Below, piece by piece: positions 7,920 through 60,035 of a stretch of 60,210 bases of DNA. The position numbers and the translations under genes are program-made. Location of the stretch: contig CAMWLJ010000007.1 of NCBI GenBank assembly GCA_947175055.1, forward strand, positions 1 through 60,210, in the 5' to 3' direction. Position 1 is the stretch's first letter. Every line of letters begins with the position of its first letter. The notes below the pieces were generated by a model that worked only from the letters and a program-made list of their open reading frames with translations, was not told the DNA's origin and did no database searches. Origin of the DNA: an uncultured Lachnospiraceae bacterium. Its GTDB lineage: Bacteria; Bacillota; Clostridia; Lachnospirales; Lachnospiraceae.

Positions 7920-8000
7920 ACTCGTATTTTTTTAATTTCGAGACGCCTTACGCCAAGGACGCGAGTAGAATTTCATAAATTGCTCATCAGAGAATTCATT
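7920..8000 (-). repeat. Stem-loop repeat, degenerate copy (between AIR-synthase-like gene and lrp)
   Basis: Read on the minus strand it contains GGTTGAATGAATT-loop-AATTTAT, the first hairpin of the dispersed family with the same CTCTGATGAGC loop seen at 12.5 kb, then a decayed second part (TAGAATTTCATA, ACTCGCGTCC). The first bases coincide with the last codon and TGA stop of the AIR-synthase-like gene. Here the terminal GCTTCGGAATGGAGG box is not recognisable. Confidence 0.6.
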
Positions 8001-9018
8001 CAACCTTGACCATATATATCTGATCCGTCTTCGCCCGATCCAGATACCGTTTCTCACCTTCATTATAGATCACCCGGTCGTTCCCGGCTGTCGTTCTTCC
8101 GATAACTGCCGCAGGAATTCCTTCCCGTGCCAGTACATCCACAAGCGCCTGCCCGTTATCCGTCACCATCAACAGGCACCCTCCCGACAACAACTCGTAA
8201 GGATTCAGCTCAAAAAATTCACAGATTTCTATCGTCTCCTGTTTTACCGGTATTTTCTTAAGATCGATCTCCAGTCCAACGCCTGCTCTCTGTGCCAGTT
8301 CCCACAAGGCTCCGAAGATCCCCCCTCTGGAAACATCATGCATCCCGCAAACGCCGGACTTCACGGCGGTGGCAGCCTCCGGTATCACGGACAGATATCT
8401 GTCATAGGCTGCCGCCTCATCGATCATACGAACCGGATATCTGGTGCACAGCTGTTCCCTGTACTGCGACGCCAGCCGTGCCGTACCTTCCAGCCCGATC
8501 CACTTACTGACCACGATGTCATGTCCTGCCTTGATTCCCCGCAGGCAACCGGCCCGTGCTGCCTCCCTTTTCCCCACACCGGTCACCGTCATCACCGCCC
8601 CGGCAACAGCAGGCGTTACCTCCGTATGTCCACCCAGAATCTGTACGCCGCATGCATCGCAGGTTCTTTCGGCCTGCTCCATCATATGCTGCAACTCCTG
8701 CTCCTCCGTCTTCTCCGGCAGCAGAATCGCCAGCATCACACCCACCGGCTGTGCACCGGCTGCGGCCACATTATTGAGAGCCATATGAATGGCATAAGTA
8801 CTGATCTTCTCTTTCGAAGCCGTGACCGGTGATGTAGAGAGCACGGTTTCATACTCGCACTCCCCGCCTGTTTCGACACGGTCACCTTGTGAAAAAGGTG
8901 CTAAAATGGCGCAGTCTTCCCCTACAGCTGCGCCACTTACCACTTCGTCCCTATGTGTCTTTATATATTTTAAGACAGAACGTCTCAACACGTTCTCCGA
9001 AATCTTTCCGTGTCTCAT
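7996..9018 (-). CDS. AIR synthase-related protein (HypE/PurM-like)
   Basis: This is a 340-aa ATP-binding protein of the PurM/HypE/SelD superfamily. It has an N-terminal VGEDCAIL (metal-ATP Asp), AIHMALNNVAAAGAQPVGVML, ILGGHTEVTPAV, a C-terminal GMHDVSRGGIFGALWELAQR, and NPYELLSGGCLLMV. It lacks the C-terminal PRVCGT-type cysteine tail of HypE and there are no hydrogenase genes nearby, so the substrate is unknown. The start at ATG 9018 follows GGAGGCAAGA, which belongs to the repeat element upstream; the longer frame simply translates that repeat. Confidence 0.85.
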   Translation of the reverse strand: MRHGKISENVLRRSVLKYIKTHRDEVVSGAAVGEDCAILAPFSQGDRVETGGECEYETVLSTSPVTASKEKISTYAIHMALNNVAAAGAQPVGVMLAILLPEKTEEQELQHMMEQAERTCDACGVQILGGHTEVTPAVAGAVMTVTGVGKREAARAGCLRGIKAGHDIVVSKWIGLEGTARLASQYREQLCTRYPVRMIDEAAAYDRYLSVIPEAATAVKSGVCGMHDVSRGGIFGALWELAQRAGVGLEIDLKKIPVKQETIEICEFFELNPYELLSGGCLLMVTDNGQALVDVLAREGIPAAVIGRTTAGNDRVIYNEGEKRYLDRAKTDQIYMVKVE

Positions 9019-9200
9019 TCTTGCCTCCATGCCGAAGCAGTTCTTTTGCGAAGGCCGCGAGCCAAATTTCAAATTTGGCTCTGCGATCTCGAGTTTGTGG
9101 CTCCGGCGCAAACTCGCAGTTGAAAAATCAGCACATCAGTGTGATTTTTCAACCTCACCTCCATGCCGAAGCAGTTCTTTTGCGAAGGCCTACGCTGAAC
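9019..9200 (-). repeat. Stem-loop repeat supplying the ribosome site (upstream of AIR-synthase-like gene)
   Basis: On the minus strand, in order: GGCCTTCGCAAAAGAACTGC and a first TTCGGCATGGAGGT box (9200 side); hairpin 1 GTTGAAAAATCA/TGATTTTTCAAC; hairpin 2 GAGTTTG/CAAACTC; hairpin 3 AGCCAAATTT-G-AAATTTGGCT; a second GGCCTTCGCAAAAGAACTGC; then TTCGGCATGGAGGCAAGA and the ATG at 9018. The box and its flank occur twice in one intergenic region. The architecture is the same as the 12.4 kb copy, with different but self-complementary stems. Confidence 0.8.
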
Positions 9201-9235
9201 TGTTACGATTCATTCCAGACTTTATGCTCTGCTCT

Positions 9236-10804
9236 TTACTGCGCAGGCGTCCCCTCCTGAGGCTGAGTCGGCTGCGCTTCCGGTGCCGGCTGCGCTCCTG
9301 CATCTGCGGGTGGCTGTGCCTGCCCCTCTGCTGCAGCCTGCGCTGCTGCCGCTTCTGCCGCCGCTGCATCGGCTGCCGCTTTATAAGCGCCTGCCACTGC
9401 CTTCACCTGATCCACACTGTTAGTCGCCACTGCTGCCATAATAGCATTGTAAGCACCTTCGTCTTCGGTAGCGATCCCTACCGTAGCGCTTCTCGGAGCT
9501 TTCATATAGGAACTGCTGTTGATCTGCTCCCGGCTCACTTCCACACCGTTCTCACGCACTACCTTCCATAGCTGTGCCTTGTACCCAATGTGTGCCGATT
9601 GTACGGAACAATACCCTACCGGTCTGGATGCATCCGTGTAGATCACCTCTGTATCCGGCGGGATCCTTTCCAGAACAACACTTTCATAAATCACTTCCCG
9701 ATTGCTGTCTCTTGTCTCCACACCGTAGATCGTAAAGGTGAGCTGCTTATCCGGCGTCGTATTTCCCTCTATATAGATAGGATACTCCATATTATTCTTA
9801 AACTTAAAATCCTTACCCGAAGACTCCGCGATCGCCGCATCTGCAGAAGGATCCACGTAGGTAACGATCATCGAATGATTGTATCGCTCCGTCACCTCCA
9901 GCTCAGACAGCAAGACCGCATTATATAAGGTAGTGGATACCTGACAGATCCCACCGCCCAGACTGTCTACCACCTGGCCGCTCAGATAGGAAGCTGCCAT
10001 ATAATACCCGTTCGCCTCCGAAAAAGGAGCCACAGCCTCATAACACGAAAACTCTTCTCCCGGGTATAAGGTGATCCCATTGATCAGATTGCATCCATTG
10101 ACCACATTCGCACTCCTGGCCCCGCCGGATGACGAATAGCTGGTGGTAAAAGTACCCAGCACATCTTTCACTTTCGCCAGTTCTTCCGCAGTCCCCATCG
10201 GTTCGGCCACCGTAACCGCCAGATCGATATCACAGGCTGCACCGCTCCACTCACTGACCAGATACCCATAGACCTCTTCCGTGGATGCCGCCGTATCGAT
10301 CACGATCCCCGGCTGCCCTTCTGTTACCTGAAAACCGGTCTCCGTCTTGACCAGGGACGCATTCACCGCCTCCTGATCATACTGTCCGGCATTCTCTTCG
10401 ATCAGCGTCCTGATCTTATTCTTATCGAAGTCAAAGCCGACTTCATATATTTTGTTCTGATATTCTAAATCCTTCAGTTCCTTATAACACTGCAATATGT
10501 CGCCGTCCCGGCCGAACCTGGCCGCTTCCTCCAGGATCTCCTCGTTCCCCCACTTCAACCCCAGTTCGGCTGCCGTCGTAACGATCGTCCCCTCATCAAC
10601 AGCGTGCAACGTGATCTGCGTATTCCCATAGGACTCCACATAGGATTCTATCATCTGTCTGGCCTCTTCAACCGTCATGCCGGACAGATCCATGTCATTC
10701 GCATAAATACCTGATTCAATTTTATCTCCTTTGGCATGTACCGGCATAGCAGCAGTAAACATTACCGTCATCATCACCGTAAATGCGACAGACCACTTTT
10801 TCAT
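9236..10804 (-). CDS. VanW family protein with signal peptide and G5-like domain
   Basis: This is a 522-aa exported protein. A signal peptide (KKWSVAFTVMMTVMFTAAMPVHA) is followed by a peptidoglycan-binding_4 type region (residues about 30-210), the VanW core (NGITLYPGEEFSCYEAVAPF ... GGGICQVSTTLYNAVL ... YNHSMIVTYVDPSADAAI), a G5-like segment near 385-450 (GYKAQLWKVVRENGVEVSRE), and a low-complexity Ala/Pro/Gln tail from about 468. No transmembrane anchor or sortase signal is visible, so it is probably secreted or wall-associated through its binding domains. VanW proteins are linked to the cell wall but their biochemical role is unclear. This is a long, multi-domain version. Confidence 0.88.
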   Translation of the reverse strand: MKKWSVAFTVMMTVMFTAAMPVHAKGDKIESGIYANDMDLSGMTVEEARQMIESYVESYGNTQITLHAVDEGTIVTTAAELGLKWGNEEILEEAARFGRDGDILQCYKELKDLEYQNKIYEVGFDFDKNKIRTLIEENAGQYDQEAVNASLVKTETGFQVTEGQPGIVIDTAASTEEVYGYLVSEWSGAACDIDLAVTVAEPMGTAEELAKVKDVLGTFTTSYSSSGGARSANVVNGCNLINGITLYPGEEFSCYEAVAPFSEANGYYMAASYLSGQVVDSLGGGICQVSTTLYNAVLLSELEVTERYNHSMIVTYVDPSADAAIAESSGKDFKFKNNMEYPIYIEGNTTPDKQLTFTIYGVETRDSNREVIYESVVLERIPPDTEVIYTDASRPVGYCSVQSAHIGYKAQLWKVVRENGVEVSREQINSSSYMKAPRSATVGIATEDEGAYNAIMAAVATNSVDQVKAVAGAYKAAADAAAAEAAAAQAAAEGQAQPPADAGAQPAPEAQPTQPQEGTPAQ

Positions 10805-10913
10805 AAAAAACCTGCCTTTCTAGAAATAAATAGCAACGATCCAAATCATCTTGAAGCATGAGCAGCAAACCACAAATTGCCCTGCTGTCAAATATATGTT
10901 ATTATTGAAGTAG

Positions 10914-11015
10914 CTAAAACGTCGCTGCAAAGAGCGGTACCACCATTGATAATACAAGAATGACTATGATTATGGAAGAAATGATCTTCTTTACTCTTCT
11001 GTTCATGTTAAACAT
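10914..11015 (-). CDS. 33-aa single-pass membrane miniprotein (Prli42-like architecture)
   Basis: The frame from ATG 11015 to TAG 10914 reads MFNMNRRVKKIISSIIIVIL followed by VLSMVVPLFAATF. It has a short basic N-terminus and one hydrophobic helix, and AGGAGGTACCGT stands directly before the ATG. Size, charge pattern and the L-S-x-x-x-P/T ending recall Prli42, the small stressosome-anchoring protein of Listeria and relatives, though the match is to architecture rather than to a proven motif. It is 109 bp upstream of the VanW gene on the same strand and could share its transcript. Confidence 0.6.
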   Translation of the reverse strand: MFNMNRRVKKIISSIIIVILVLSMVVPLFAATF

Positions 11016-11132
11016 ACGGTACCTCCTTCTTCCGCCTTGTATATAAAACTCTATCCTGTATGAATCATTAAAGTGATCAAAATGAATCATACAGTCGCAT
11101 ACTATTATAAGTTTACTGAAAGGATATTATAT

Positions 11133-11750
11133 ATGAATTTAGTATTTTTTGCAAGTGTTGCCACTCTCTCCGTTGCCATTGCCGTCAATATCCGCAAAAA
11201 CAAAAAGACTCAGGAAGCCATAGAACAAGATTTCTGGACAAGAGAGCGGGAAGCCAACAGTACCAGGCGCAAATCCCTGGACGATCTGGAGTATATCCAC
11301 ATTCCAGTAGAGCAGTTTCCCATGTCGCTGTTGCCTGACGTGCCCAAGGTCGAAGACTACAAGCAGATCGTTATGACATTAAAGGATCAGCCCGTCGTCA
11401 ATTTTACCGGCATCAGCAACACGGAACTGAAGCTTCGCTATGGAGCACCCAATATCGACCTTCTAACACAGTACGACCAGAATTATACGATCCTTGTCCG
11501 CACCCTGCAGCAATGGGCCCAGGCTCTTTACGATGCAGGCCATATTGACGAAGCTTGCCGGATGTTAGAATATGCCGTGTCCACGGGAACTGATATCAGC
11601 AGTACTTATCGTCTGTTGTGTCAGATCTATAAAGAACAGCAGACACCGGAGAAGATCGGTCATCTCTATCCGATTGCAGAAGTCCTGAATTCCGCTATGC
11701 AGAAATCTATCGTCCGTATTCTGCAAGAAGCAGATCGATCTGTCGACTAG
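11133..11750 (+). CDS. Membrane-anchored hypothetical protein
   Basis: This is a 205-aa protein with one N-terminal transmembrane helix (NLVFFASVATLSVAIAVNI) followed by a basic RKNKK and a cytoplasmic domain. The C-terminal part (LVRTLQQWAQALYDAGHIDEACRMLEYAVSTGTDISSTYRLLCQIYKEQ) has the spacing of one or two TPR-like helical hairpins. The function is unknown. The ATG at 11133 follows GAAAGGA; the frame extends to 11073 without a ribosome site. The last 44 bp overlap the 3' end of the exonuclease gene on the other strand. Confidence 0.65.
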   Translation: MNLVFFASVATLSVAIAVNIRKNKKTQEAIEQDFWTREREANSTRRKSLDDLEYIHIPVEQFPMSLLPDVPKVEDYKQIVMTLKDQPVVNFTGISNTELKLRYGAPNIDLLTQYDQNYTILVRTLQQWAQALYDAGHIDEACRMLEYAVSTGTDISSTYRLLCQIYKEQQTPEKIGHLYPIAEVLNSAMQKSIVRILQEADRSVD

Positions 11751-12423
11751 CTTCCCCACGGGACAGCCTGTCAATATCATAGTCTATTATCAGTTTATGT
11801 CTGTCTCTCAACTTATATAACTGTTCTTTTTGGGATACAGTGATCGGCGTATCCCTTTTTACATGATAGGACAGCGCCTTCGGTACAAAAAGGCTGCGCC
11901 TTCCTTCCACCGCCTCCTTCTCACAAAATTCCTCAGTCAGTCTCTGATATAGCTTTGCAGTAGCTTCCGCATCCCCCAACGCCCGATGAGCATTATGGAC
12001 AATATTGTAATGACTGCAGAGACAGCTCAGACTACGACTTTCCAGATCTGCCAAATATTTCCGCGCTATCTTCAACGTATCGATCCCGCTTCTCTCAAAA
12101 GACAGTTTCCTGTCAACAGCCGCCTTTTTGATAAAAGAATAGTCAAACAACACCCTGTGTCCCAACAGTACTTTATCCTCTGTCATTGCAAGCAGCCTGG
12201 GAAGTACTTCTTCTATCGCAGGCGCCTCTGACAACTGCTCGTCGCAGATTCCGGTAAGCGCGGTGATATGGTCCTCGAGTCTTCTGTTTGGATTAACAAA
12301 AGTCTCCCACTTCTCAACGATCCTGCTATCTTCTACTATCACGGCTCCGATCTCAATGATCTTATCTCTCTTAGGATTCAGGCCCGTAGTCTCCAGATCG
12401 ATGCACACATATGATTCTGTCAT
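11707..12423 (-). CDS. DnaQ-like 3'-5' exonuclease (DEDDh)
   Basis: The 238-aa protein has all three exonuclease motifs: ExoI CIDLETTGLNPKRDKIIEIG, ExoII around LLGHRVLFDYSFIKKA, and ExoIII HNAHRALGDAEATAKLY (the His and Asp of DEDDh). It resembles the proofreading exonuclease of PolC/DnaQ as a stand-alone protein, plus a C-terminal extension of about 60 aa (VSQKEQLYKLRDRHKLIIDY) that may bind nucleic acid. It starts at ATG 12423 after GGAATGGAGGTAAAT, which is the end of the upstream repeat. It overlaps the preceding gene tail-to-tail by 44 bp. Confidence 0.88.
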   Translation of the reverse strand: MTESYVCIDLETTGLNPKRDKIIEIGAVIVEDSRIVEKWETFVNPNRRLEDHITALTGICDEQLSEAPAIEEVLPRLLAMTEDKVLLGHRVLFDYSFIKKAAVDRKLSFERSGIDTLKIARKYLADLESRSLSCLCSHYNIVHNAHRALGDAEATAKLYQRLTEEFCEKEAVEGRRSLFVPKALSYHVKRDTPITVSQKEQLYKLRDRHKLIIDYDIDRLSRGEASRQIDLLLAEYGR

Positions 12424-12655
12424 ATTTACCTCCATTCCGAAGCGCTCTGCGCTGAGGACGCGAGCAGAATTTCAGATTCTGCTCTGCGATCAATAGAATT
12501 TGTGACGCTTCGGCACAAATTCTTGGTTGAAGAAATTGCTCATCAGAGAATTTATTCAACCTTACCTCCATTCCGAAGCAGTTCTTTTGCGAAGGCCGCG
12601 AGCCAAATTTCAAATTTGGCTCTGACTTCCATTCCAAAGCGTCAGCAAAATGCCG
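12424..12655 (-). repeat. Stem-loop repeat, most complete copy (upstream of exonuclease)
   Basis: On the minus strand: a small partial box near 12655, AGCCAAATTT-G-AAATTTGGCT, GGCCTTCGCAAAAGAACTGC, TTCGGAATGGAGGTAA; hairpin 1 GGTTGAATAAATT/AATTTCTTCAACC with loop CTCTGATGAGC; hairpin 2 AGAATTTGTG...CACAAATTCT; hairpin 3 AGCAGAATCTGAAATTCTGCT; then GCTTCGGAATGGAGGTAAAT and the ATG at 12423. Compared with the 9.1 kb copy, stems 2 and 3 differ at paired positions on both sides, so pairing is kept. Confidence 0.85.
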
Positions 12656-12803
12656 TTTCCTCTACAATATATTGTGCCTTTATTCGCTTTTCTACTTCCA
12701 TTCGTGATTTCTGTCCTTAAAATATTCTTTACATAATACCTTTATTATAAATTGGAATATTTCTTCCGGCAAATTCACCTACAATAATAGAAGGGTAAAG
12801 AGA

Positions 12804-13151
12804 ATGAAAACACGAATCAAAAAATTACGATTAGAGAAAAAATTATCACAGCAGGCTTTGGCGAAAGATTTAAATCTGAACCAATCCACACTGAGTAAGA
12901 TCGAATGTGGGATATCCACTCCGGATGCCTCCCTCGTATGCGATCTTTCACGCTTCTTTCATGTCTCTACAGACTATGTTTTGTATCTTGCCGAAGAACG
13001 TCTTAACGCAGATTTATTACTGGCAAACGACAAGTTCCACTTAAAAAAATATCGAAACCATATGTCTATGTATCAACAGTTAAGTCCCTGGCAGCAGAGG
13101 GCATGTGACAACTTTGTGCAAAATATGCTGGGACTCGACATACAACCCTGA
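12804..13151 (+). CDS. XRE-family helix-turn-helix regulator
   Basis: This is a 115-aa protein with an N-terminal Cro/CI-type HTH (KTRIKKLRLEKKLSQQALAKDLNLNQSTLSKIECGISTPDASLVCDLSRFFHVSTDYVLYL, residues 2-61) and a short C-terminal segment of unknown role. AGAAGGG lies upstream of the ATG. The neighbours on both sides are on the opposite strand, so it is probably a single-gene unit. Target unknown. Confidence 0.85.
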   Translation: MKTRIKKLRLEKKLSQQALAKDLNLNQSTLSKIECGISTPDASLVCDLSRFFHVSTDYVLYLAEERLNADLLLANDKFHLKKYRNHMSMYQQLSPWQQRACDNFVQNMLGLDIQP

Positions 13152-13294
13152 TCCCCATGACCAAATTGCAAAAACTTGTTTTGTATAGAAAATGCATTTC
13201 TATCAGATTGGCAGAGCAATCCCCATAAACCAGAAAGAACCACCTTCTTTTCTGCCAAAGCTGATCTACGCGTCGGTATTCATGCCGCGTGTCT

Positions 13295-13321
13295 AAAAGG
13301 CGAGATCGAAAGATCCCGCCT
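13295..13321 (-). terminator. Rho-independent terminator after galT
   Basis: On the minus strand: AGGCGGGATC-TTTC-GATCTCGCCT followed by TTT, a 9-10 bp stem with one mismatch. It lies 30 bp beyond the galT stop codon. Confidence 0.7.
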
Positions 13322-13350
13322 CATTTCTACTCTATTTTGATAAATGCGCC

Positions 13351-14856
13351 CTAGCAGTTCAAAGACTCTATAAATCTGTCGAATGCTGCCTGGCCTTCCT
13401 CGTTCCTCTTATACACGCCGGAATCCTCCAGCACCTGCATAAACACATTCCCGATCTCCTTATGGATGATATCCATTACCGTATCTTTATTGATCTGCGG
13501 ATACTTTGGCAGAAATTCTTCCACCCAATCGGCATGTTTCTCTAACAACTCATCCTTCCTAAGATCTGCCCCGGAAAGAATCGCCTCCGCCAGCTTCTCC
13601 ATCTCATCCTTCAATCTGGCAGGCAGTACCGCCAGACCCATCACCTCGATCAGACCGATATTCTCCTTCTTGATATGGTGCAGGTTCGCATGAGGATGAT
13701 ACACGCCCAGAGGATGTTCATCTGTCGTAATGTTATTGCGCAGCACCAGATCCAACTCGAACTTATCGCCTCGTTTCCTGGCGATGGGTGTGATCGTATT
13801 GTGGGGCTCTCCATCGGTCTCGGCAAAGATAAATGCCGCCTCATCACTGTAACCTCTCCACGCATTTAAGATCACGTCCGCCAACGCCACCAGCCTGCCA
13901 GAATCTGCGGCTGAGATTCGGATCACGGACATGGGCCAGTTCACGATCCCGGCTTCCACATCCTCAAATCCCTTGACCGTGAAGGTTCTCTCCACCTGTG
14001 CTCTCGCCATGGCAAACTCATAATGTCCGCCCTGGAAATGGTCATGGCTTAAGATAGAACCGCCCACGATCGGCAGATCCGCATTGGAACCCACGAAATA
14101 GTGCGGGAACTGCTTTACGAAATCAAACAGCTTGCAGAAGGTATCATGCTCGATCTTCATCGGGATATGCTGTGAATTGAACACTATGCAATGTTCATTG
14201 TAGTATACATAAGGAGAATACTGAAATCCCCAGCGGCTGCCATTGATCACCACCGGGATCACCCTATGGTTCTGTCTCGCCGGATGATTCACGCGCCCCG
14301 CATAGCCCTCATTCTCCATGCACAGCAGGCACTTCGGATAGCCGCTTTGCTTCGCAGTCTTGGCCGCCGCGATGGCCTTGGGATCCTTCTCCGGTTTGGA
14401 CAAATTGATGGTGATATCCAGATCGCCATACTTCGTGGCCGCGATCCACTTCTGATCCTTCTTGATCCGATATCTTCTAATATAATCCGTATCCTGGCTC
14501 AACTTATAGAAATAATCCGTCGCCTCCATCGGGCTTCTCTCATATCTGGTCTCAAACTCAGAGATCACCTCACTGGGCCTGGGCACCAGCATACTCATGA
14601 TCTTCGTGTCAAACAGATCCCGGTATACAATACTGTTCTCCGTCATGATGCCCTGCGCGTAAGCATAGTCCATCATCTGCGCCAGTACCTCTTCCAGTTC
14701 CTCCACACTCATGCTCACTTCTTCGCTGCATTCTTCCAACTCATCCAGCCGGAAAAGCTCCAGAAGCCTGTTGGTCGTATAAATCTTATCCGCTTCCGTG
14801 ATCAGGCCTGTCTGCAGCCCATATTGTACCAGTTGTCTAATATTTCTCTGTATCAT
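13351..14856 (-). CDS. galT: UTP/UDP-glucose--hexose-1-phosphate uridylyltransferase, class II GalT
   Basis: This is the Leloir-pathway enzyme that exchanges uridylyl groups between UDP-glucose and galactose-1-phosphate. It has 501 aa, the size of the class II (Firmicute) form. Active-site region SILSHDHFQGGHYEFAMARA contains the H-x-H histidines; GVYHPHANLHHIKKENIGLIEVMG is also family-typical. It lies 121 bp downstream of galK on the same strand and is followed by a terminator, so galK-galT is an operon. No galE is in the window. Confidence 0.93.
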   Translation of the reverse strand: MIQRNIRQLVQYGLQTGLITEADKIYTTNRLLELFRLDELEECSEEVSMSVEELEEVLAQMMDYAYAQGIMTENSIVYRDLFDTKIMSMLVPRPSEVISEFETRYERSPMEATDYFYKLSQDTDYIRRYRIKKDQKWIAATKYGDLDITINLSKPEKDPKAIAAAKTAKQSGYPKCLLCMENEGYAGRVNHPARQNHRVIPVVINGSRWGFQYSPYVYYNEHCIVFNSQHIPMKIEHDTFCKLFDFVKQFPHYFVGSNADLPIVGGSILSHDHFQGGHYEFAMARAQVERTFTVKGFEDVEAGIVNWPMSVIRISAADSGRLVALADVILNAWRGYSDEAAFIFAETDGEPHNTITPIARKRGDKFELDLVLRNNITTDEHPLGVYHPHANLHHIKKENIGLIEVMGLAVLPARLKDEMEKLAEAILSGADLRKDELLEKHADWVEEFLPKYPQINKDTVMDIIHKEIGNVFMQVLEDSGVYKRNEEGQAAFDRFIESLNC

Positions 14857-14977
14857 ACTTCCTCGCCTCTCCTATTCTTAAACGTGTCGTCTGCAGCCCT
14901 GTGTCCTATACGGAAGCCTCCGGATCGATCGCCTGCCGTCTATATGGCTGCCCCTGCGGATCTCGTCCATCTGCTGT

Positions 14978-16326: not shown

Positions 16327-16345
16327 AAGGTATCCTGCGTATAGT

Positions 16346-22877: not shown

Positions 22878-23050
22878 ACTTACCTCCATTCCGAAGCGCC
22901 ACAAACTCTAACTGAACTTGTTCAGTTTGTTGAACTAAATTGCTCCTCAGAGAATTTATTCAACCTAATCCTCCATGCTTCCAACACCTGCAAATTTGGG
23001 CGTCAGCAAAAATTTATCTGCAAAATTTTATTCTTCCTATTCCCGGCCAT
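22878..23050 (-). repeat. Stem-loop repeats between blaI and blaR1 genes
   Basis: Two adjoining units are read on the minus strand. The distal one is of type 2: GCTGACGCCCAAATTTGCAG followed by GTGTTGGAAGCATGGAGGATTA. The proximal one has hairpin 1 GGTTGAATAAATT/AATTTAGTTCAAC, then ACAAACTGAAC-AA-GTTCAGTTAG with AGTTTGT, and GCGCTTCGGAATGGAGGTAAGT before the blaR1 ATG. Hairpin 3 is missing. Confidence 0.75.
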
Positions 23051-23468: not shown

Positions 23469-23518
23469 CGTTTCCTCCATTCCGAAGCGTTTATTCTTCC
23501 TCTGTCCTTCCATTTTTT

Positions 23519-24147: not shown

Positions 24148-24164
24148 ATTAATCCCCTATTCTT

Positions 24165-24310
24165 GCTCAGTCTGCAAATTTGGGCGCAAGCACAAATTTG
24201 TGTGTGAAAAATCTGCGCGGAGAATGCCGTATTTCAGGCATTCTCTTAAACATTTAGCAGCTCTTAGGCTGCGTTCTTTGCTGCCTTAGAGTTGGTTAAT
24301 GTTTTTCTCA
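24165..24310 (-). repeat. Large structured element between ackA and the membrane protein gene
   Basis: It contains CAAATTTG-GGCGCAAGCA-CAAATTTG (as in the type 2 repeats at 22.98 and 38.83 kb), the perfect hairpin GAGAATGCC-GTATTTCA-GGCATTCTC, AGCAGC...GGCTGC, and an outer pair GTGTGAAAAA with TTTTTCTCACAC. The whole region can fold as one branched structure. It lacks the GCTTCGGAATGGAGG end. Confidence 0.65.
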
Positions 24311-38797: not shown

Positions 38798-38880
38798 AAA
38801 ATACCTCCATGCTGCCAACACCTGCAAATTTGGGTGTCAGCACAAATTTGTCTGTGAAAAATTCATTTTTCACAGTATCA
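38798..38880 (-). repeat. Stem-loop repeat, type 2 (upstream of dhaL)
   Basis: Minus strand: CTGTGAAAAAT-GA-ATTTTTCACAG (perfect hairpin), then ACAAATTTGTGCTGACACCC, AAATTTGCAGGTGTTGGCAG, and GCATGGAGGTATTTT before the dhaL ATG. Nearly the same sequence occurs at 22.98 kb, and its middle part occurs at 24.18 kb. Confidence 0.8.
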
Positions 38881-39922: not shown

Positions 39923-39949
39923 ATCACATTTCACCACTTTCTATATATT

Positions 39950-40010
39950 TTGCTCCATTCCGAAGTGTCACAAACTCTAACTGAACTTGTTCAGTTTGTT
40001 AAACTAAAAA
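39950..40010 (-). repeat. Stem-loop repeat, decayed copy (upstream of dhaK)
   Basis: Minus strand: ACAAACTGAAC-AA-GTTCAGTT with AGTTTGTG, then CTTCGGAATGGAGCAAAA. It is nearly identical to the blaR1 copy at 22.9 kb, but the ribosome-site core is GGAGC and the dhaK start lies about 30 bp further on, so here it no longer provides the site. Confidence 0.7.
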
Positions 40011-48129: not shown

Positions 48130-48141
48130 TTCTATATTCTC

Positions 48142-52881: not shown

Positions 52882-53003
52882 TTCTGCCGCAACGTTACAG
52901 AGAACTCTTTTTGCACTACAGATCCTCGAAATCTTTTTGTGCTCACAAAGGCAGACACGTGTGAGATTCCGGGAATCTGTCACTATAATTCGGAGGTATT
53001 GAT

Positions 53004-55121
53004 ATGTCACAGACTTTAACCATGAAAAAAATGGAGCAGAGGCTGCAGCGGGCGGACCGGAAGCACGCGCATCTGTATCTGTTCTGTAATTTTACCGCTT
53101 TGATGATCATTTCCGCCTACTCGGGCATGATGCTGTCGCCGACGGTACAGACCACTTTTCCGCCGGGAGGGGACAGCCGCAAGCAGATGAATGCTATCTT
53201 TATATTGACATTGATCGGCTGCGTTGTGTTTGCCATCTATGCCGCCGGCCTCTTTTTCCGGCATAAATCAAGACAGCTGGGCATCCTGATGGCGCTGGGC
53301 GCTTCCAGGCAGAGGCTGATGCCGGGCTTATTCCGGGAAGTTCTGTTCTTAAGCGGCTTCTCCTGCACGGCGGGCATTCTGGCCGGATTTCCTTTTATCT
53401 GGATCATCTGGTCACTCTTCCGGCTGCTCCTCATTGACAGCTCGGATATGAGACTTTCCTTTGATCCCGTATGCCTGCTGATCTCCTTTGCATTTCTGCT
53501 GACGGTGGCCGCTTTTTCCTGTATCCTCGCCTGGCACTATCTGCGCAGAACCAATATCATGGAGGTCATCCGGGAGGAGCACATCAACGAACCCGTAAAG
53601 GAGCTCGGAAAATGGTGCGCGCCGGCGGGTTGTATCCTTCTTGCGGCCGGGCTTCTTCTGGGATACTGCACGCCCATTTTCTATTATTATAAGGTTCAGG
53701 CTCTGCCGCCTGTCTGGATGAACCTCCTCTATGCGCCGGCATTTGCAGGGCTTTATATGATCATGCTCCATGCCGTGGTCCACGGGTTTGGACGCCGTAA
53801 GCATGCTCCCTACAAGAATATCATCGCCCGGAGCATGATGAAATTTCAGGGAAAACAGACCGTAAACAATATGATTGTCGTTACGCTGCTGATTGCCAGC
53901 GCCTGTTTCGGCATCTTCTATGTCCCCATCCTGTCCATCGGCACGATCATGGAATATCATGCCCAGCCCTACGATTATTTCTATCACTACCGGGCCGACC
54001 AGACCTTGCCTGACAGGGAGGCCATAGAAACGCTCGCCGAGGAATACGGCCTGTCCTTAAAAGACTGGGGCGAATTCGACTATATCACGCTGGCATTTGG
54101 CGCCTTCTCCAGCATAATGGAGGAAGACGGCAAACACTGGCATGATGAATACATCCCCATATGCATAGAAAAAAGAGTCATCTCCGAAGACACGTGGAAC
54201 ACGCTCACCGGCGAAAATATAGATGTCCTCCCCGGCACTTACCTGTGTATCACCAATCAGGAGGAAACAGCCCTCTCCATAATCAGCAGCGCGAAACACA
54301 TCACCAATATGGTCACACGCACACAGATCTCCACCCAATATGCGGGTCTTCTCCATTACGACCTGATGACGGACATGCGCGGCTATTGTGTAGTGGACAA
54401 TACGGATTACGCACTGCTCTCGGAAGGCCTGACCGATGACTGGAAAGGCAGGATCGTATCCTTTAATGTGGACGGCAAAGACAGCTATCCCTTCGCCGAC
54501 GCCCTTTTTCACCACATGGTTTCCTGCTTTGATGAAAATTGCTTTACTGCCGTATACCACGATCGGATCACCACCATCAGGGCCGAAGAGCAGGGTATCG
54601 CAGACTGGCAGGCGTCCGATCCCATGATGCGTATTGACCCGGCCGAAGCAGATTCCCTCACCTTTCGCCAGAACTGGGAATATATACCCCGGTTCCGTAT
54701 TTTAAGCATAAACGATTTCCTGCTGTCCTCGTCCGTATTTTTGATGATGTTCCTGTTTATTTTCATTGTATGCATCCTGACGGTTCTGATCATCTGTTAT
54801 ACCCGCTGTCAGACCATCGCCTTAAACAACCGTTACATCTTCGACGATCTAAAGAAACTGGGTGCATCTCCCGGCTTCCTGGACAGGGAAGTGAGAAGCC
54901 AGTGCGGCAGTGTCTTCAGGGTGCCGGCTGTGGTGGCGCTGATCGCTGTCTACCTGTTTTTTATCCTGCTGCTGTATGGCAATGACGGGCAGCTCGTGTA
55001 CAGCGAGATCGTGTCGCTGGGGGCATGCCTTGGAATTGAGGCGGTGCTTAGCATTCTAATCTACGGGGTTTACCGGGTTACCGTGGCCGGGATCAGACAG
55101 AAGCTGGGCATATTCCTCTAA
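53004..55121 (+). CDS. FtsX-type ABC permease (BceB-like)
   Basis: This is a 705-aa permease with the first helix near residues 27-45, an FtsX domain (IFILTLIGCVVFAIYAAGLFFRHKSRQLGILMALGASRQRLMPGLFREVLFLSG), several further helices, a large outer domain of about 220 residues (about 320-560), and a second C-terminal FtsX-like domain (SVFLMMFLFIFIVCILTVLIICYTRCQTIALNNRYIFDDLKKLGAS). The large outer loop between helices is characteristic of BceB, which pulls lipid-II-cycle antibiotics off their target. GGAGGTATTGAT precedes the ATG. A strong stem-loop follows. Confidence 0.88.
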   Translation: MSQTLTMKKMEQRLQRADRKHAHLYLFCNFTALMIISAYSGMMLSPTVQTTFPPGGDSRKQMNAIFILTLIGCVVFAIYAAGLFFRHKSRQLGILMALGASRQRLMPGLFREVLFLSGFSCTAGILAGFPFIWIIWSLFRLLLIDSSDMRLSFDPVCLLISFAFLLTVAAFSCILAWHYLRRTNIMEVIREEHINEPVKELGKWCAPAGCILLAAGLLLGYCTPIFYYYKVQALPPVWMNLLYAPAFAGLYMIMLHAVVHGFGRRKHAPYKNIIARSMMKFQGKQTVNNMIVVTLLIASACFGIFYVPILSIGTIMEYHAQPYDYFYHYRADQTLPDREAIETLAEEYGLSLKDWGEFDYITLAFGAFSSIMEEDGKHWHDEYIPICIEKRVISEDTWNTLTGENIDVLPGTYLCITNQEETALSIISSAKHITNMVTRTQISTQYAGLLHYDLMTDMRGYCVVDNTDYALLSEGLTDDWKGRIVSFNVDGKDSYPFADALFHHMVSCFDENCFTAVYHDRITTIRAEEQGIADWQASDPMMRIDPAEADSLTFRQNWEYIPRFRILSINDFLLSSSVFLMMFLFIFIVCILTVLIICYTRCQTIALNNRYIFDDLKKLGASPGFLDREVRSQCGSVFRVPAVVALIAVYLFFILLLYGNDGQLVYSEIVSLGACLGIEAVLSILIYGVYRVTVAGIRQKLGIFL

Positions 55122-55143
55122 ATGTGATTTCTTACAGGAGCAA

Positions 55144-55186
55144 AAAGAGCTGTCCGTTTGCATAAGCAGCAAATTGACAGCTCTTT
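55144..55186. terminator. Bidirectional stem-loop terminator
   Basis: AAAGAGCTGTC (55144-55154) pairs perfectly with GACAGCTCTTT (55176-55186). On the minus strand it is followed by TTT, serving the TOPRIM-like gene; on the plus strand it closes the ABC operon but without a T-run. Confidence 0.7.
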
Positions 55187-55211
55187 CGCGTAACTCACCT
55201 TGTTTCCTACC

Positions 55212-55799
55212 TCAGTATATTCCCAGCACCTTGTATAAAGGTTCTAACTGCGTATGAACGCTCTGCACTATTCTATCAATATCCAGTCGTCCAACCATAC
55301 CATTACTCTTCATTCCCTTATAATACATCTTGTTTGCCTGTTTAAAAAGTTTTTTCAATTTATCATATCCATTGCCTCCGGATACTTTCGTTTTCCTTGA
55401 CAAACGAAGAAATGATATTATTCCGTCCACATCAAGCAAAAACCAGTCTTCAATAGAATGTTCCGCTCTTATGTGGATAACGTTTCGGACTCCATTCTCC
55501 TTAAAAGCAGCTTCTACTTCATCCCAGTTTATCGGAGGTTTGGGAGAGAGTTCAAAAACATCTGTGTCTCTACATAAAGCGACATTAAACTCACATTCCT
55601 CTCCATACTTAGGCTTTATTTCCTTTATAAACTTACGTAGAGCAATATTTTTAAATCCTCCGACACCTTTGACATTTTTACATTCTATGTTAATATCAAA
55701 TCTTCCATCTGCCCTCTTCTGCCTAGCATTTGATATTACACGTTTATAAAACTCAACTTCTGTATCTCCCTCAACAAATAATACAAGGCATTTACTCAT
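55212..55799 (-). CDS. TOPRIM-like protein, partner of the AAA ATPase
   Basis: The 195-aa protein starts SKCLVLFVEGDTEVEFYKRV, where VEGxTE is the TOPRIM-type glutamate motif, and has ALCRDTDVFEL with a DxD, then RAEHSIEDWFLLDVDGIISFL. This order (E, then DxD) and the size resemble the DUF4276/DUF4435 class of TOPRIM proteins encoded beside OLD/PARIS-like ATPases. It should be a nuclease effector. The ATG overlaps the last codons of the ATPase gene (ATGAGTAA), so it is translationally coupled. The DNA here is AT-richer than the flanks. Confidence 0.7.
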   Translation of the reverse strand: MSKCLVLFVEGDTEVEFYKRVISNARQKRADGRFDINIECKNVKGVGGFKNIALRKFIKEIKPKYGEECEFNVALCRDTDVFELSPKPPINWDEVEAAFKENGVRNVIHIRAEHSIEDWFLLDVDGIISFLRLSRKTKVSGGNGYDKLKKLFKQANKMYYKGMKSNGMVGRLDIDRIVQSVHTQLEPLYKVLGIY

Positions 55800-57078
55800 G
55801 TATATCACACTCCAGATAGTCTTCCCAATCACATTCCTCATCCGCCAGCATCGAAAACAGGTAATCTCCTATACTCATCTTAAAATCCGCAGCATCCTGT
55901 TGTAATAAACGCTGACCTGATTTTTTGAATTTATAAAACTCGGCAATCCCTGGTTGTCTGTTTATGCCTACATGTATCCATGAAGGCTCAAAATAACTCA
56001 CAACGTAAGGCGAGTGACTGGTTACGATTATCTTACAATCATCCAACAACTGACTGATTATTTGCACATAAGCCCGAAATAAACTTGGATGCACCGAATT
56101 CTCTGGTTCTTCGACTGCAATCAGAGAAACATTTCCTTCATTGGCCAAAATGATCCTCGCCAGAATCATAAACACTCTTTTTGCACCATCTGACATCATC
56201 GCAAAATCAATGGGGTATATTAAATTCTTATCTTTCACAAATAAGACGTATATGGCATTTGCTATTACAAACGGAGAATCGGCAGGTAATCTATCATTGT
56301 CTCCACCATTAAATTTGTATTGCTTAACAACAATGTCCTCAACATCAGGAAACAAATCTTTATATACTTCCTTCAACAGGGCAAATTTATCCGGATTTTT
56401 CTCCTGTAATTGATATATTACACGTGGAAGACTTTCTGCATCAACAGCCATGTCTTCTAAGCCTTTGCGAATAAATGGATCTGGCTGATAAAAACTCTTT
56501 GCATCCAGATTATTCTCCATATAGAATCTCATACTATTCATTTTTTTAATAATTACAGCATAAAACAATTCATCATATGCTCGAAGCTTATTTACAACCA
56601 GTTCCGCCGCCTCAACATTTATTTTGGATGAGCATCTGCCCGTTTCAGAACTTTTATATAATGTTGTCTGTCCTTCTCTGTTAATCAGCTGTGTATATTT
56701 CTGCCCCTTGTCTTCTGGCCTGATCTTCAAATATTCGGACACAATATATGGTTCCGTGCTCTCATCACTCTTCCAAACAAATTCATATCCATAAAGTACA
56801 CGATATTCAACATCATCCAGTTCAGTCAAAATCTCCATTTGAAATTTGTAGTTTCTGTTAACCATACATCTGTTCATTGGTATTAAATTCGAATTAGCCA
56901 TCATATCAGCCTTATCTTCCATTGTAGCTTTCATAAATGTCAAACCAAAATCAATGGCAGCAAGTACATTCGATTTGCCAAAATTGTTTAACGCCACTAA
57001 AGCTGTAATGTTATCGAAACCAATCTTAACATTTGACAGATTCTTGAATCCATCGATCAAAACCGCCTGAATTTTCAT
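55792..57078 (-). CDS. AAA family ATPase (OLD/AriA-like)
   Basis: This is a 428-aa ABC-like ATPase. Walker A is ITALVALNNFGKSNVLAAI, the signature-like motif is AMMSDGAKRVFMI, Walker B is VSLIAVEEPENSVHPSLFRAY, and the H-loop is IIVTSHSPYVVS. It is related to the ATPase half of OLD nucleases and to AriA of PARIS systems. The nuclease half is supplied by the separate TOPRIM-like gene downstream. It starts at ATG 57078 after AAAGGTGTTGCGAT; a longer frame to 57111 exists. The low-GC base composition suggests a horizontally acquired defence module. Confidence 0.85.
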   Translation of the reverse strand: MKIQAVLIDGFKNLSNVKIGFDNITALVALNNFGKSNVLAAIDFGLTFMKATMEDKADMMANSNLIPMNRCMVNRNYKFQMEILTELDDVEYRVLYGYEFVWKSDESTEPYIVSEYLKIRPEDKGQKYTQLINREGQTTLYKSSETGRCSSKINVEAAELVVNKLRAYDELFYAVIIKKMNSMRFYMENNLDAKSFYQPDPFIRKGLEDMAVDAESLPRVIYQLQEKNPDKFALLKEVYKDLFPDVEDIVVKQYKFNGGDNDRLPADSPFVIANAIYVLFVKDKNLIYPIDFAMMSDGAKRVFMILARIILANEGNVSLIAVEEPENSVHPSLFRAYVQIISQLLDDCKIIVTSHSPYVVSYFEPSWIHVGINRQPGIAEFYKFKKSGQRLLQQDAADFKMSIGDYLFSMLADEECDWEDYLECDIHE

Positions 57079-57232
57079 ATCGCAACACCTTTCCTTTTGT
57101 AGTGTATTCATACCATATCATCTTTTCTTTTAAAACGCAATATTTCTTTTCGTATTATTTTATTTTTATCCATTCTATTCTGTATTTATTCCACGAAATG
57201 CAATTTAAACTAATGTTACTTATATTCTTTCA

Positions 57233-57287
57233 GACAAAAACCTTACTGACTTCCGGTTATTTACATAGAAATCAATAAGGTTTTGTC
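57233..57287 (-). terminator. Long inverted repeat between two AAA genes
   Basis: GACAAAAACCTTA (57233-57245) pairs with TAAGGTTTTGTC (57276-57287), one bulge, 30-nt loop. It lies about 105 bp beyond the stop codon of the 57.4-59.1 kb gene. It could be its terminator or a leader structure of the ATPase gene; the surrounding 57.1-57.39 kb holds nothing else I recognise. Confidence 0.45.
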
Positions 57288-57391
57288 ATATCTTTCAATA
57301 TGAAAGTCTTGTCTGCTTCACTACTTACTTGTGATTGACCATCTTCCGGCGGCTGGCACACCACAGTATGCAGGCTAACCGGCATCAAAGC

Positions 57392-59119
57392 CTACTGCGC
57401 GATCAGCACCCTCTTGCCACAGAAAGCAAAGCCATACTTCCGGATCCGTTCCTCCGGAATCCCTCTGGCGATCAGGGCTGCCTGATAGTCCCGCTCCTCG
57501 ATCTGTTTTAAGGCGCTGCGTGCTGTTTCAGTCAGTTCCGTCTCCTCCGTATCCTGCACCTTGAACTCTATGATAATAGCATCTGGTGGAACATCTTTGT
57601 GCGGCGCGGCGTCTTTTCCCTGCAATGCCGCCGATGGTGCCAGGCTTCTGGGCTCTAACATCACATCATATCTGCCAAAACCGCTTTCCCTGTTGGACGT
57701 GATCACATACCTGTCCTCCAGTTCCACCATCAGTCCCAACACAAACCCATGGTAGAAGCGTTCCGGCTCTCCCTGCGGGCTTTTGCCCGTATCAAAGAAG
57801 CTGAACATTTCCATTGTCACACGGTTCATATACAGGTTCATCGCTTTCACGTCTCCAAGCAGCAATGCCTTAATGAAATCATTGTAATCATCATTCCACG
57901 CAAACCAGTCCTGAACCATATTGGCAAACATGATATGCACTTCTTTATTGGTCAGCGTCAGGTCATAATACATGCGCCCTGTTCTTTCCTCAAATACAGT
58001 GCCGACTACTTTCAGATAACCACTGGCAAGAAAAAGGCTCCAGACCGCATTCTTCTTCGCCGATAACTGGTCATAGACGATCTGTTCATCTATTTCCATA
58101 TGAAGCGTTCCGCCGTCAAGCAGATCTTCAAAAGCCTGCTTGACTTTCGGTTTACCCTCTCTGATCAGTTTTTCCACCAGACGATTGGCGCTGGTATTGG
58201 CCCAGTACGCACCGACTCTTCTTTCATCCAGGAAATTAATGATAGACCATGGGTTATAGATGTCCCTTCTTTCTCCAAAAGAAAATCCGTCATACCAGTC
58301 CTTTACCTTCTGCTTCTGATCAGACAGACCGTATTCCTCTAATACTGCAAAGACCTCCTCCTCTGTAAACCCGAAACAATCGGAATACTTCTTTGAGGTT
58401 GTAGTCACTACCTTCAAATTATTCAGATCAGAAAAAATCGACTCTTTGCTGACCCTCGTGATCCCTGTCATAATAGCGCGCTCCAGATACGGATTCGTCT
58501 TAAATGTCGCGTTAAACAGGCTTCTGGTAAAAGCGACCATCTCCCCCCAATACCCATTGACATACGCTTCCTGCATGGGTGTATCATATTCATCCAGAAG
58601 GATGATCGTTTTCTTTCCATAATATCTGCCGAGAAAATCAGAAAGCGCCCTCAGCGATGCCGCCGCCATGCTGTCTGACATATTTGCAGAAATGCTCCGG
58701 CAGAACGCTTTTTCTCTCTCATTGAGAAGGTCTCCGTTAAGCAGACGGTCATATTTATTGTACTGCTCCTCGATAGTTCTGCACATGCTTTCCCTTGCAT
58801 CCGCATAAGTGCTCTCTTTGACACCGGCAAAACTGAGAAAGATCACCGGATAAGTACCCTGCAGGTCTATGTATTTCTCACTTTCCCAGATCTTAAGACC
58901 ACAAAACAGATCCCCTCTGTCCTTATGATCCACAGAAAAGAATTTCTCCAGCATACTCATATTCAAGGTCTTTCCAAACCTTCTCGGTCTGGTGATCAGC
59001 GTCACGCCGTCCCCGCTTTCCCACCACTGGCGTATCAGATCGGTCTTGTCAATATAGAAATAGCCTTCCCGTCTGATCGTCTCAAAATCCTGGTTACCGA
59101 TACTTATCGTCCTTGCCAT
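57392..59119 (-). CDS. AAA-ATPase_like / PD-(D/E)XK nuclease family protein (DUF1703 type)
   Basis: This 575-aa protein has the AAA-ATPase-like part (DFETIRREGYFYIDKTDLIRQW, Walker A TRPRRFGKTLNMSML, IILLDEYDTPMQEAYVNGYWGEM, ITGITRVSKESIFSDLNNL) and a C-terminal PD-(D/E)XK domain (GRYDVMLEP ... PDAIIIEFKVQDTEE ... IEERDYQAALIARGI). These genes are present in many copies in gut anaerobes and their role is not established; a nuclease or defence role is inferred. The ATG at 59119 overlaps the end of a small frame upstream. Confidence 0.85.
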   Translation of the reverse strand: MARTISIGNQDFETIRREGYFYIDKTDLIRQWWESGDGVTLITRPRRFGKTLNMSMLEKFFSVDHKDRGDLFCGLKIWESEKYIDLQGTYPVIFLSFAGVKESTYADARESMCRTIEEQYNKYDRLLNGDLLNEREKAFCRSISANMSDSMAAASLRALSDFLGRYYGKKTIILLDEYDTPMQEAYVNGYWGEMVAFTRSLFNATFKTNPYLERAIMTGITRVSKESIFSDLNNLKVVTTTSKKYSDCFGFTEEEVFAVLEEYGLSDQKQKVKDWYDGFSFGERRDIYNPWSIINFLDERRVGAYWANTSANRLVEKLIREGKPKVKQAFEDLLDGGTLHMEIDEQIVYDQLSAKKNAVWSLFLASGYLKVVGTVFEERTGRMYYDLTLTNKEVHIMFANMVQDWFAWNDDYNDFIKALLLGDVKAMNLYMNRVTMEMFSFFDTGKSPQGEPERFYHGFVLGLMVELEDRYVITSNRESGFGRYDVMLEPRSLAPSAALQGKDAAPHKDVPPDAIIIEFKVQDTEETELTETARSALKQIEERDYQAALIARGIPEERIRKYGFAFCGKRVLIAQ

Positions 59120-59304
59120 ACTGTCGCGTCACCTCCAGTCGCGTCATTTTCTACACCTTCCATCACATTCACGATTACCTGTAAATATGACACCATCCTC
59201 TCAACCAAATACATCCCCATCACAACTAATCGGTCGGTATCTTTGATCATCGCGCCTGCCAAAGGATCCGTAATCCATTCATCCGCATATTGGTTATTGA
59301 AACT
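59104..59304 (-). pseudogene. Possible gene fragment upstream of the AAA/PD-(D/E)XK gene
   Basis: An open frame of 66 codons reads NNQYADEWITDPLAGAMIKD and on to MVSYLQVIVNVMEGVENDAT, ending at 59104 inside the start of the next gene. ATG codons exist inside (for example in GAMIKD) without a ribosome site. It could be the tail of a lost gene. I do not recognise it. Confidence 0.25.
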
Positions 59305-59452
59305 TCAACAAACCGGTTCCTCTGCTCTGCCAGGCGGAATCATGCCGGATCATAAAAGGATCCATTGCAGCAGGTGATTCGATATTTATCTCAATAATAT
59401 CAATCTTAATAAATGAATCTACTAATAATATAAACTTGATATCGCAATATAG

Positions 59453-59773
59453 TTACATAAGATCTTTGTCAACGCGCCCCTGACTTACCGAAGGCAGGTT
59501 ACTTAAATTATTCCCTTCGTCCCCGTCGGGAAGGGACTTCAAATATTCACTGTCGTTGCGGTGGGCGATGCCGACACCCTTGATCTCGCCGTTCTTAGCC
59601 ATTGCCACGCCATCCTCTTTCGAGACGGTGTTACCGTCTGAAAGCTGATACCCGGTAATGCGGCCGCTGCTTTTCACCAGCCCTACAATATCCCTGGCGT
59701 CGCTTTTTACTTCGGGAATCTCGTCAAGTGCGCTCATGGCCAGTTCCGGCCCAATCAATCGGTCTTCTCTCAT
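59453..59773 (-). CDS. DUF3892 family protein
   Basis: The 106-aa protein matches DUF3892: ITGYQLSDGNTVSKEDGVAMAKNGEIKGVGIAHRNDSEYLKSLPDGDEGNNLSNLPSV. These small proteins are common in clostridia; function unknown. The N-terminal part (REDRLIGPELAMSALDEIPEVKSDARDI) is also typical. AAAGGAGAGAGAACG precedes the ATG. It stands about 150 bp from the AAA/PD-(D/E)XK upstream region and is probably a separate unit. Confidence 0.8.
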   Translation of the reverse strand: MREDRLIGPELAMSALDEIPEVKSDARDIVGLVKSSGRITGYQLSDGNTVSKEDGVAMAKNGEIKGVGIAHRNDSEYLKSLPDGDEGNNLSNLPSVSQGRVDKDLM

Positions 59774-59964
59774 CGTTCTCTCTCCTTTTCTATTTTTTAT
59801 AGAATAAGGATTTCCGATCCGTTCCGATTTATACAGGCAGAAATTGACAATTACTGCCAGATATCATGCCGATTGCCGCCGGTCATTCCGTTCCGTATTT
59901 CATACAATACATCACGGCTATTCTATCACAAAGAAAGAAAAGTACAAACAAAAATCATCACATT

Positions 59965-60035
59965 TACCGCCATGCCGAAGCGTCACAAATTCCTGGTTGG
60001 ATAAATTGCTCATCAGAAAATTTATGCAGCCTTTA
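59965..60035 (-). repeat. Stem-loop repeat copy near the right edge
   Basis: Minus strand: GGCTGCATAAATT-loop-AATTTATCCAACC, then AGGAATTTGTGACGCTTCGG and CATGGCGGTAAATG. Hairpin 1 keeps the CTGATGAGC loop, and the ribosome-site core is changed to GGCGG. The ATG that follows opens only a 15-codon frame, so this copy serves no visible gene. Confidence 0.7.

Follow-up and report, generated by a model that had tools for sequence, protein, structure and literature searches.

Small interspersed repeats are usually considered to be loosely placed in intergenic DNA. Repetitive extragenic palindromic (REP) sequences and bacterial interspersed mosaic elements (BIMEs), with their REP-associated tyrosine transposases (RAYTs), and the IS200/IS605 elements have imperfect palindromes, show oriented insertion and leave no target duplication. 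In Streptococcus pneumoniae, the BOX, RUP and SPRITE repeats are described, in the part of the source drawn on here, as small, interspersed and modular hairpin repeats with tandem inner modules, and effects of BOX on downstream genes are reported (PMC3049150). The mobile or repeat candidates of a structured-RNA screen are characterized, in the passages drawn on here, by inconsistent orientation and association with transposases or integrases (PMC11109978). Here we describe a repeat found in a 60,210-nt stretch of an uncultured Lachnospiraceae genome (contig CAMWLJ010000007.1; ‘the window’) and in its relatives. This repeat is likely to be a non-coding mobile element, ~130 nt long, whose insertions into translation initiation regions share one orientation and supply a new Shine–Dalgarno sequence (SD), and the reading of the repeat as a mobile SD-carrying leader is well supported. 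The family is large and apparently unnamed. Among the titles and abstract openings listed in searches of the open-licence literature, with subscription journals outside the search, none names the element or TD-2, the Rfam family closest to it in score.

Like BOX, RUP and SPRITE, the element is a small interspersed modular hairpin repeat that occurs in tandem; unlike them, as far as that partial account describes them, it combines a precise SD-to-start placement with a replacement SD (PMC3049150). With the candidates of the structured-RNA screen it shares a structured motif and many copies per genome, and it differs from them, as described in those passages, in its fixed orientation and in that none of the three enzyme families searched fits (PMC11109978). 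The conserved structure upstream of a start codon, with an SD, resembles a riboswitch; the functional mixture of the downstream genes (20 scanned) does not. A comparison of the consensus by eye finds no inverted repeat between the two ends of the element, GGTTGAATAA and GGAATGGAGG, unlike in a miniature inverted-repeat transposable element.

The element is placed with near nucleotide precision in the start sites of unrelated genes, including the housekeeping genes nusB and adk; it carries an SD that the downstream genes appear to use, and it disturbs start-codon annotation. If the copies alter initiation, a single element would have rewired many genes of gut Lachnospiraceae, in parallel, at the level of translation. 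An earlier note on this DNA had proposed a dispersed 5′-leader element; insertion between the native SD and the start codon, empty sites, tandems, a pseudoknot and an occurrence in 31 genera go beyond it.

Placement at translation starts and empty sites

The terminal box of the element, GCTTCGG[AC]ATGGAGG, occurs 97 times in the genome that contains the window (G000; 3.47 Mb in 225 contigs, 80.9% complete) and 163 times when up to one mismatch is allowed; neither search finds the reversed pattern (0 matches). A 20-nt pattern, GAACTGCTTCGGNATGGAGG, is found four times in the window with up to three mismatches, where 0.01 are expected. Chance is excluded as the source of the repeats by these two results. 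The exact boxes divide into 48 on the plus and 49 on the minus strand and follow gene direction, so the earlier description of all copies as minus-strand holds within the window and not genome-wide.

We examined 103 of the 163 near-boxes in this genome. A start codon lies 3–12 nt beyond 86 of them, opening a frame that either has 50 codons or more or runs off the locus; 8 boxes precede another unit in tandem and 9 precede neither a gene nor a unit. A start at this distance follows 201 of 761 other GGAGG sites and 2879 of 20000 random positions. Orientation and distance to start codons are clearly not random, and the counts bear out the proposal of a leader that brings its own SD. The distance from GGAGG to the start codon is exactly 5 nt in 70 of the 86 boxes, a spacing seen at 2 of 37 native GGAGG starts in the own-genome loci and 25 of 196 in G348, G370 and the window (the window belongs to both native samples). 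Among copies from other genera, 29 of 30 lie at most 15 nt before a frame of 50 codons or more, and some of these frames run off the locus end.

The left end was examined in 101 full-length copies, most of which were fetched through a pattern for the first hairpin (HP1). Adenine occupies position −2 in 97 and position −1 in 99 of these copies, and ATG stands 5 nt past GGAGG in 74. Within the 16 nt left of the unit, 86 of the 101 have 4 nt or more that match AAGGAGGTGA, compared with ~27% of 483 control windows, and in 32 the left flank is itself an ATGGAGG box, some of these being prior units. This places the unit between an SD and a start codon. Nine of the 101 units directly precede another. 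In two genomes (G311 and G373), most of 15 copies start with GTGTG or a close variant, follow SD..TA and end in GGAGATTA.

Twenty of 82 downstream proteins were scanned with Pfam and have mixed functions, one lacking a family. They include NusB, GH30, formyltransferase, AIR synthase, exonuclease, CAAX protease, nickel insertion and P5C reductase proteins, together with glycosyltransferase, the BlaI penicillinase repressor, apiosidase, adenylate kinase, MCP, ABC-2 and others. No common function is found among these 20 and the window genes.

Sites with and without the element were compared among the site pairs listed. In the pair L141 (G328) and L222 (G348), which are 97% identical on both sides, ttatagtAAAAAAtATG corresponds to ttatagtAAAAA, then the element, then cAAAtATG; in L189 and L271 (95–96%), gcggggagAAAAtGTG corresponds to gcggggagAAA, the element and tAAAtGTG. 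The net gain in both pairs is the GGTTGAA...GGAGGN unit plus AA, which shows insertion at these two sites. The AIR-synthase site of the window (unit 9024..9154) is empty in the orthologues of G348, G370 and G328, at lower identity. The gene of the pair L175/L024 has the main element in G328 but a looser subtype here, in the genome of the window, and another site holds two units in G328 and one in the own genome (L152/L065).

These observations are consistent with a mechanism in which the element would insert just 3′ of the native SD, a few nucleotides before the start codon and after an A-rich ‘AA’. Since the 3′ end of the element would itself serve as an SD (ATGGAGG-N-AA), insertion would shift the native SD by ~135 nt and place the new one 5 nt before the start. 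The gene could remain expressed, and the new SD could take a further unit. The displaced SD is probably inactive and the element SD in use, and copying would proceed mostly by insertion rather than conversion.

Hairpins, pseudoknot and the level of selection

The full unit spans ~129–141 nt, and more where optional inserts are present (alignment A1, below). HP1 is a 16-bp hairpin with a conserved TGAT loop and a bulged C. HP2 has 10 bp and a loop of CCGAAGCGT or a relative of it, and HP3 has 12 bp and a single bulge, its loop sometimes containing a nested hairpin. HP4 is a small hairpin ending in TTCGG, with ATGGAGG immediately after. The earlier note recognised three hairpins in the most complete copies; the full unit has four, followed by the SD box. 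A hammerhead reading of CUGAUGAG in HP1 was rejected by eye, as this sequence is the hairpin loop and there is no GAAA core. An element-encoded protein was likewise rejected: in the consensus, read by eye, a frame is open from TTG in type 1, whereas early stops interrupt it in type 2 and in the GTGTGA subtype.

Covariation was counted in two alignments that have a few copies in common. A1 contains 58 of the 101 full-length copies, aligned with MAFFT, and A2 contains 44 matches aligned to the covariance model, 31 of them from 20 genera other than the own genus; the cells of these pair counts are not independent. In A1, 95.4% of cells in 46 pairs are paired, 20 pairs show double changes, and 135 cells are changed on both sides, compared with 31 in shuffled and at most 18 in slid controls. 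In A2, 97.1% of cells are paired, double changes occur in 39 of the 46 pairs, and 391 cells are changed on both sides (101 shuffled, at most 37 slid). In A1, T/G at the base of HP4 changes together with the A/C position of the box (UA 42, GC 7 and 9 unpaired). Seven copies folded singly give z values of −4.4 to −7.8.

The HP2 loop is complementary to the 3′ strand of HP4, directly before the SD, and this pseudoknot competes with HP4. Examples of the loop and strand are CCGAAGCGT/ACGCTTCGG, CCGGAGCGT/ACGCTCCGG, CCGCAGACG/CGTCTGCGG, CTGAGCGA/TCGCTCAG and GAGAACGC/GCGTTCTC. The mean run of complementarity is 8.1 in 34 distinct combinations, compared with 5.6 when partners are swapped (0 of 2000 swaps as good, the highest reaching 6.6) and 3.7 when letters are shuffled; two copies, L340 and L347, lack the pairing (runs of 3 and 2). 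The HP4 strands also covary in Watson–Crick runs, with 0 of 2000 swaps as good, or 175 of 2000 when G-U is allowed. Bare duplex energies, which exclude the loop cost, range from −14 to −17 kcal/mol in the pseudoknot, whereas those of HP4 range from −4 to −9 kcal/mol.

Mismatches in the stems and in the pseudoknot follow different patterns. The ratio of G-U to A-C in the stems is 43:53 in A1 and 21:17 in A2 (64:70 together), whereas 48 tRNAs of related genomes, counted in three stems only and in the register printed by ARAGORN, give 51:1. Double changes in the stems comprise 33 of transversion type and 16 of transition type. The stems thus bear no mark of RNA selection, as A-C mismatches are as frequent as G-U, unlike in tRNA stems. 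In the pseudoknot G-U is favoured, at 14:5 in A2, 21:3 in A1 and 35:8 together, and the difference from the stems has p 9e-5 (with cells not independent). Sense RNA may therefore matter for the pseudoknot; in our reading, the perfection of the stems would reflect a process at the DNA level or hairpin-templated correction, or else the stems decay neutrally after insertion. The compensatory change from which the earlier note argued for selection on folding is present and very strong, and its step to RNA folding is weakened by the lack of a G-U preference. RNA folding as a selected property is only partly supported, as is the interpretation of that note.

A possible but doubtful alternative is a cis-regulatory RNA, either a riboswitch or a protein-binding leader, in which HP4 would free the SD and the pseudoknot would release the 5′ strand of HP4 (CCTC), able to cover the SD. 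It fits the fixed location ahead of start codons, the covariation of two mutually exclusive pairings and the G-U preference of the pseudoknot. It also agrees with the single folds in which the SD is paired (L323, L341, L142 and the 9.1-kb copy of the window, and partly the 12.5-kb copy), whereas L016 and L030 have an unpaired SD. Pairing between this anti-SD and the SD shows no covariation (563 of 2000 swaps as good) and was dropped as a conserved switch. The stems lack a G-U preference, the downstream genes are unrelated and the element is present or absent at orthologous genes, all of which argue against this alternative. In a mobile leader, the choice between pseudoknot and HP4 may still set access to the SD.

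Rfam contains nothing that reaches threshold in the window except a tRNA, and no family reaches threshold on the element copies searched. The nearest likeness is to the TD-2 RNA (RF03162, clan CL00124), whose name refers to Treponema denticola. Three hairpins are common to both, in matching order, with GAGTTT/AAACTC and TGAAAA/TTTTCA stems, and in a 351-nt stretch TD-2 matches in antisense (L065:5208-5303, minus) with an E value of 2.2e-5. This match scores 43 bits against a cut-off of 48.7, and the sense strand of the same stretch scores 23.8 bits. No genome of six exceeds the cut-off, the best scores fall on type 2 copies, and the matched model leaves HP4 and the SD box uncovered. The antisense similarity suggests that TD-2 could be related to the element, its strand having been assigned the other way.

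Mode of spread and distribution

Several observations weigh against a mobile element directed to start sites. Of 198 boxes with element context in the genomes examined, 138 precede a gene and 16 a tandem unit, and 44 have no open reading frame (ORF) of at least 50 codons at 3–12 nt. An ATG or GTG is still present at +5 in 26 of these 44; the target therefore includes a start-codon-like triplet, or many of the frames are short or decayed. The L141 site does not lie at the start of its downstream gene, the next long frame beginning ~67 nt further on, and both clean empty sites fall at A-tracts, which leaves the exact ends ambiguous. Although the SD is not part of the covarying stems, only 2 of the 7 single folds leave it open. 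Upstream and downstream boxes of the L136 and L191 tandems have private mutations in common, which suggests local duplication or conversion. In 45 of 101 copies the base at −3 is identical to the first base on the right, compared with 34.5 expected (p 0.011). Finally, no mobilising enzyme was found in searches for the Y1, IS110 and RVT_1 families, which did not extend to serine or tyrosine recombinases.

The match at −3 arises in copies with a box on the left (21 of 32, p 0.005) and not in the other 69 (p 0.35). A three-base target duplication is unsupported in these 69 flanks, though the 32 box flanks and the whole set show a match; a 2-bp AA duplication is possible.

Some of these findings would also be expected if the element spread passively, by homologous recombination or gene conversion between SD boxes with no dedicated enzyme, hairpin-templated correction keeping the hairpins perfect. 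We regard this as unlikely. The mutations common to tandem boxes, the restriction of the −3 match to box-left copies, the equal A-C and G-U counts in the stems with their excess of transversion-type double changes, and the absence of an enzyme in the three families searched all point towards it. Left flanks such as aaggagctgaa, however, are scarcely homologous to the element past the SD, and the left end is nevertheless precise; clean insertions occur at sites that are not boxes.

Y1 transposases are present in 5 of 13 genomes searched, and number 0 in G000 and 0 in G328 (93% complete). IS110 is absent from the element-rich genomes G300, G304, G358, G362, G326, G311, G373 and G365 (G000 has 2 matches, G328 3 and G348 2). 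RVT_1 is absent from G000, G300, G304, G358, G371, G060, G365 and G348, and present in G328 (1), G311 (1), G373 (2), G326 (3) and G362 (2). Read off these presences and absences, none of Y1, IS110 or reverse transcriptase occurs throughout the element-rich genomes, and all three were rejected as the mobiliser. Ten proteins encoded between or near neighbouring copies include no transposase; they are metabolic, sporulation-related or without a family.

A further alternative is a REP-like or IS200/IS605-like element, whose hairpins would be recognised as single-stranded DNA, whose target would resemble its right end and which would insert in one orientation without a target duplication. The left target and the right end are both SD plus N-AA, HP1 has its conserved TGAT loop and bulged C, and the stem mismatches are DNA-like. 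We consider this explanation quite improbable: unlike REP/RAYT and IS200/IS605 systems, the richest genomes, G000 and G328, have no Y1 transposase, and G320, with 16 Y1 matches, has only 6 model hits.

For the mobile SD-carrying leader, we would guess at a recombinase acting in trans that uses the SD-like end as its attachment site. A stronger form of this idea, which we put forward with little confidence, is that the element uses the translation initiation region itself for attachment. The element would home to SD-N-AA, re-create its own target through a right end of the same SD-N-AA and install a bistable pseudoknot/hairpin switch before arbitrary genes, yielding transposable leaders interchangeable across the family.

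The covariance model (R1) detects the element in at least 52 of 77 genomes of the genus, and in at least 32 of 250 genomes representing at least 31 of 249 sampled genera of Lachnospiraceae. These counts are floors, because the candidates scored per genome were limited (at most 43 in the genus and 13 in the family). A scan of named records with the HP1 pattern returned 95 stretches, comprising 84 from Lachnospiraceae, 4 from ‘Clostridiaceae bacterium’, 1 from ‘Clostridia bacterium’, 4 without a family, and one match each in Nostoc and Prochlorococcus, which we take for chance. In viral DNA, 80 of 87 HP1-pattern stretches (624 kb) contain 0 model matches at E 0.01, and viral spread was rejected on this basis. 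Phage records yield two unannotated scaffolds covering 65–68% of the query, and plasmid records yield no match to it. Four loci (L095, L157, L205 and L164) contain a further leader hairpin, GATTGAAAATTAAAATTTTCAATC, followed in L095 by CACAAACTCG arms with an SD-like sequence near; this is possibly another subfamily.

Copies in the window

A repeat search grouped the copies in the window into families D1–D7 and D10 (Table 1). Each place was read and compared with the covariance model and the repeat search, and a minus-strand copy is present wherever the earlier note had seen one. The five lowest-scoring minus-strand matches of R1 in the table span 24.9–34.1 bits, and two weak plus-strand matches overlie the same palindromes.

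Table 1. Element copies and associated genes in the window
Feature	Position	Strand	Remarks
Full unit, type 1	12429..12561	minus	HP1-HP2-HP3-HP4, then box GCTTCGGAATGGAGG; R1 160 bits
Exonuclease gene	ATG 12423		Start 5 nt past box of 12429..12561 unit; Pfam RNase_T
5′-truncated unit (HP3, HP4, box)	12565..12634	minus	Tandem, directly upstream of 12429..12561; R1 ~34 bits
Full unit, type 2	9024..9154	minus	Ends GCTTCGGCATGGAGG; R1 122 bits
AIR-synthase-related gene	ATG 9018		Start 5 nt past end of 9024..9154 unit
Truncated unit (GGCCTTCGCAAAAGAACT and box)	9158..9190	minus	Tandem, directly upstream of 9024..9154
Short unit, type 3 (HP1, one hairpin, box)	22883..22965	minus	R1 ~31 bits; precedes blaR1-like gene
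blaR1-like M56 peptidase gene	ATG 22877		After 22883..22965 unit; Pfam Peptidase_M56
Solo terminal box	23474..23488	minus	Precedes blaI-like gene (ATG 23468; Pfam Penicillinase_R)
Short unit with box GCTTCGGCATGGCGG	59967..60031	minus	R1 27 bits; GTG at +5 nt opens just 11 codons
Degenerate copy	7930..8005	minus	R1 26 bits; following gene (start 7891) has a different SD
Degenerate type 3 copy, decayed box ACTTCGGAATGGAGC	39945..40008	minus	Repeat D10; box end ~30 nt before Dak1 gene (ATG 39922; Pfam)
Looser subtype (CAAATTTGTG...CAAATTTGCAG, end GCATGGAGG)	38804..38875	minus	Repeat D6; R1 25 bits; precedes Dak2 gene (ATG 38797; Pfam)
Looser subtype	24154..24209	minus	Repeat D6; precedes gene starting 24147
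Looser subtype	22970..23025	minus	Repeat D6; directly upstream of 22883..22965 unit

Of the copies listed in the earlier note, those at 7.95 and 39.98 kb are degenerate, and neither provides an SD for the gene that follows. The copies at 24.2 and 38.84 kb, earlier taken for the same repeat, belong to the looser D6 subtype. The blaI-like gene does have the terminal box only, and the 60.0-kb copy precedes no visible gene, as had been noted. The N-terminal extensions that the earlier note had called spurious are explained by the ATG within ATGGAGG, which, at a spacing of 5 nt, shares the reading frame of the true start, for example in ORF 11707–12435. A start caller can lengthen the exonuclease in this way by four codons, MEVN (12435 rather than 12423).

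The D6 copies at 22970–23025, 24154–24209 and 38804–38859 form a second leader repeat (CAAATTTGTGCT...CCAAATTTGCAG) that is only distantly like the main element, and two of these three end in an SD-like GGGGA or GGAGG ahead of a start codon. Elsewhere in the window, positions 720–762 and 2443–2485 form a direct repeat (D9), 81% alike, with the palindrome TGACAT..GGTGTCA followed by a −10-like TATCCTT or TATACTT, which looks like a common operator.

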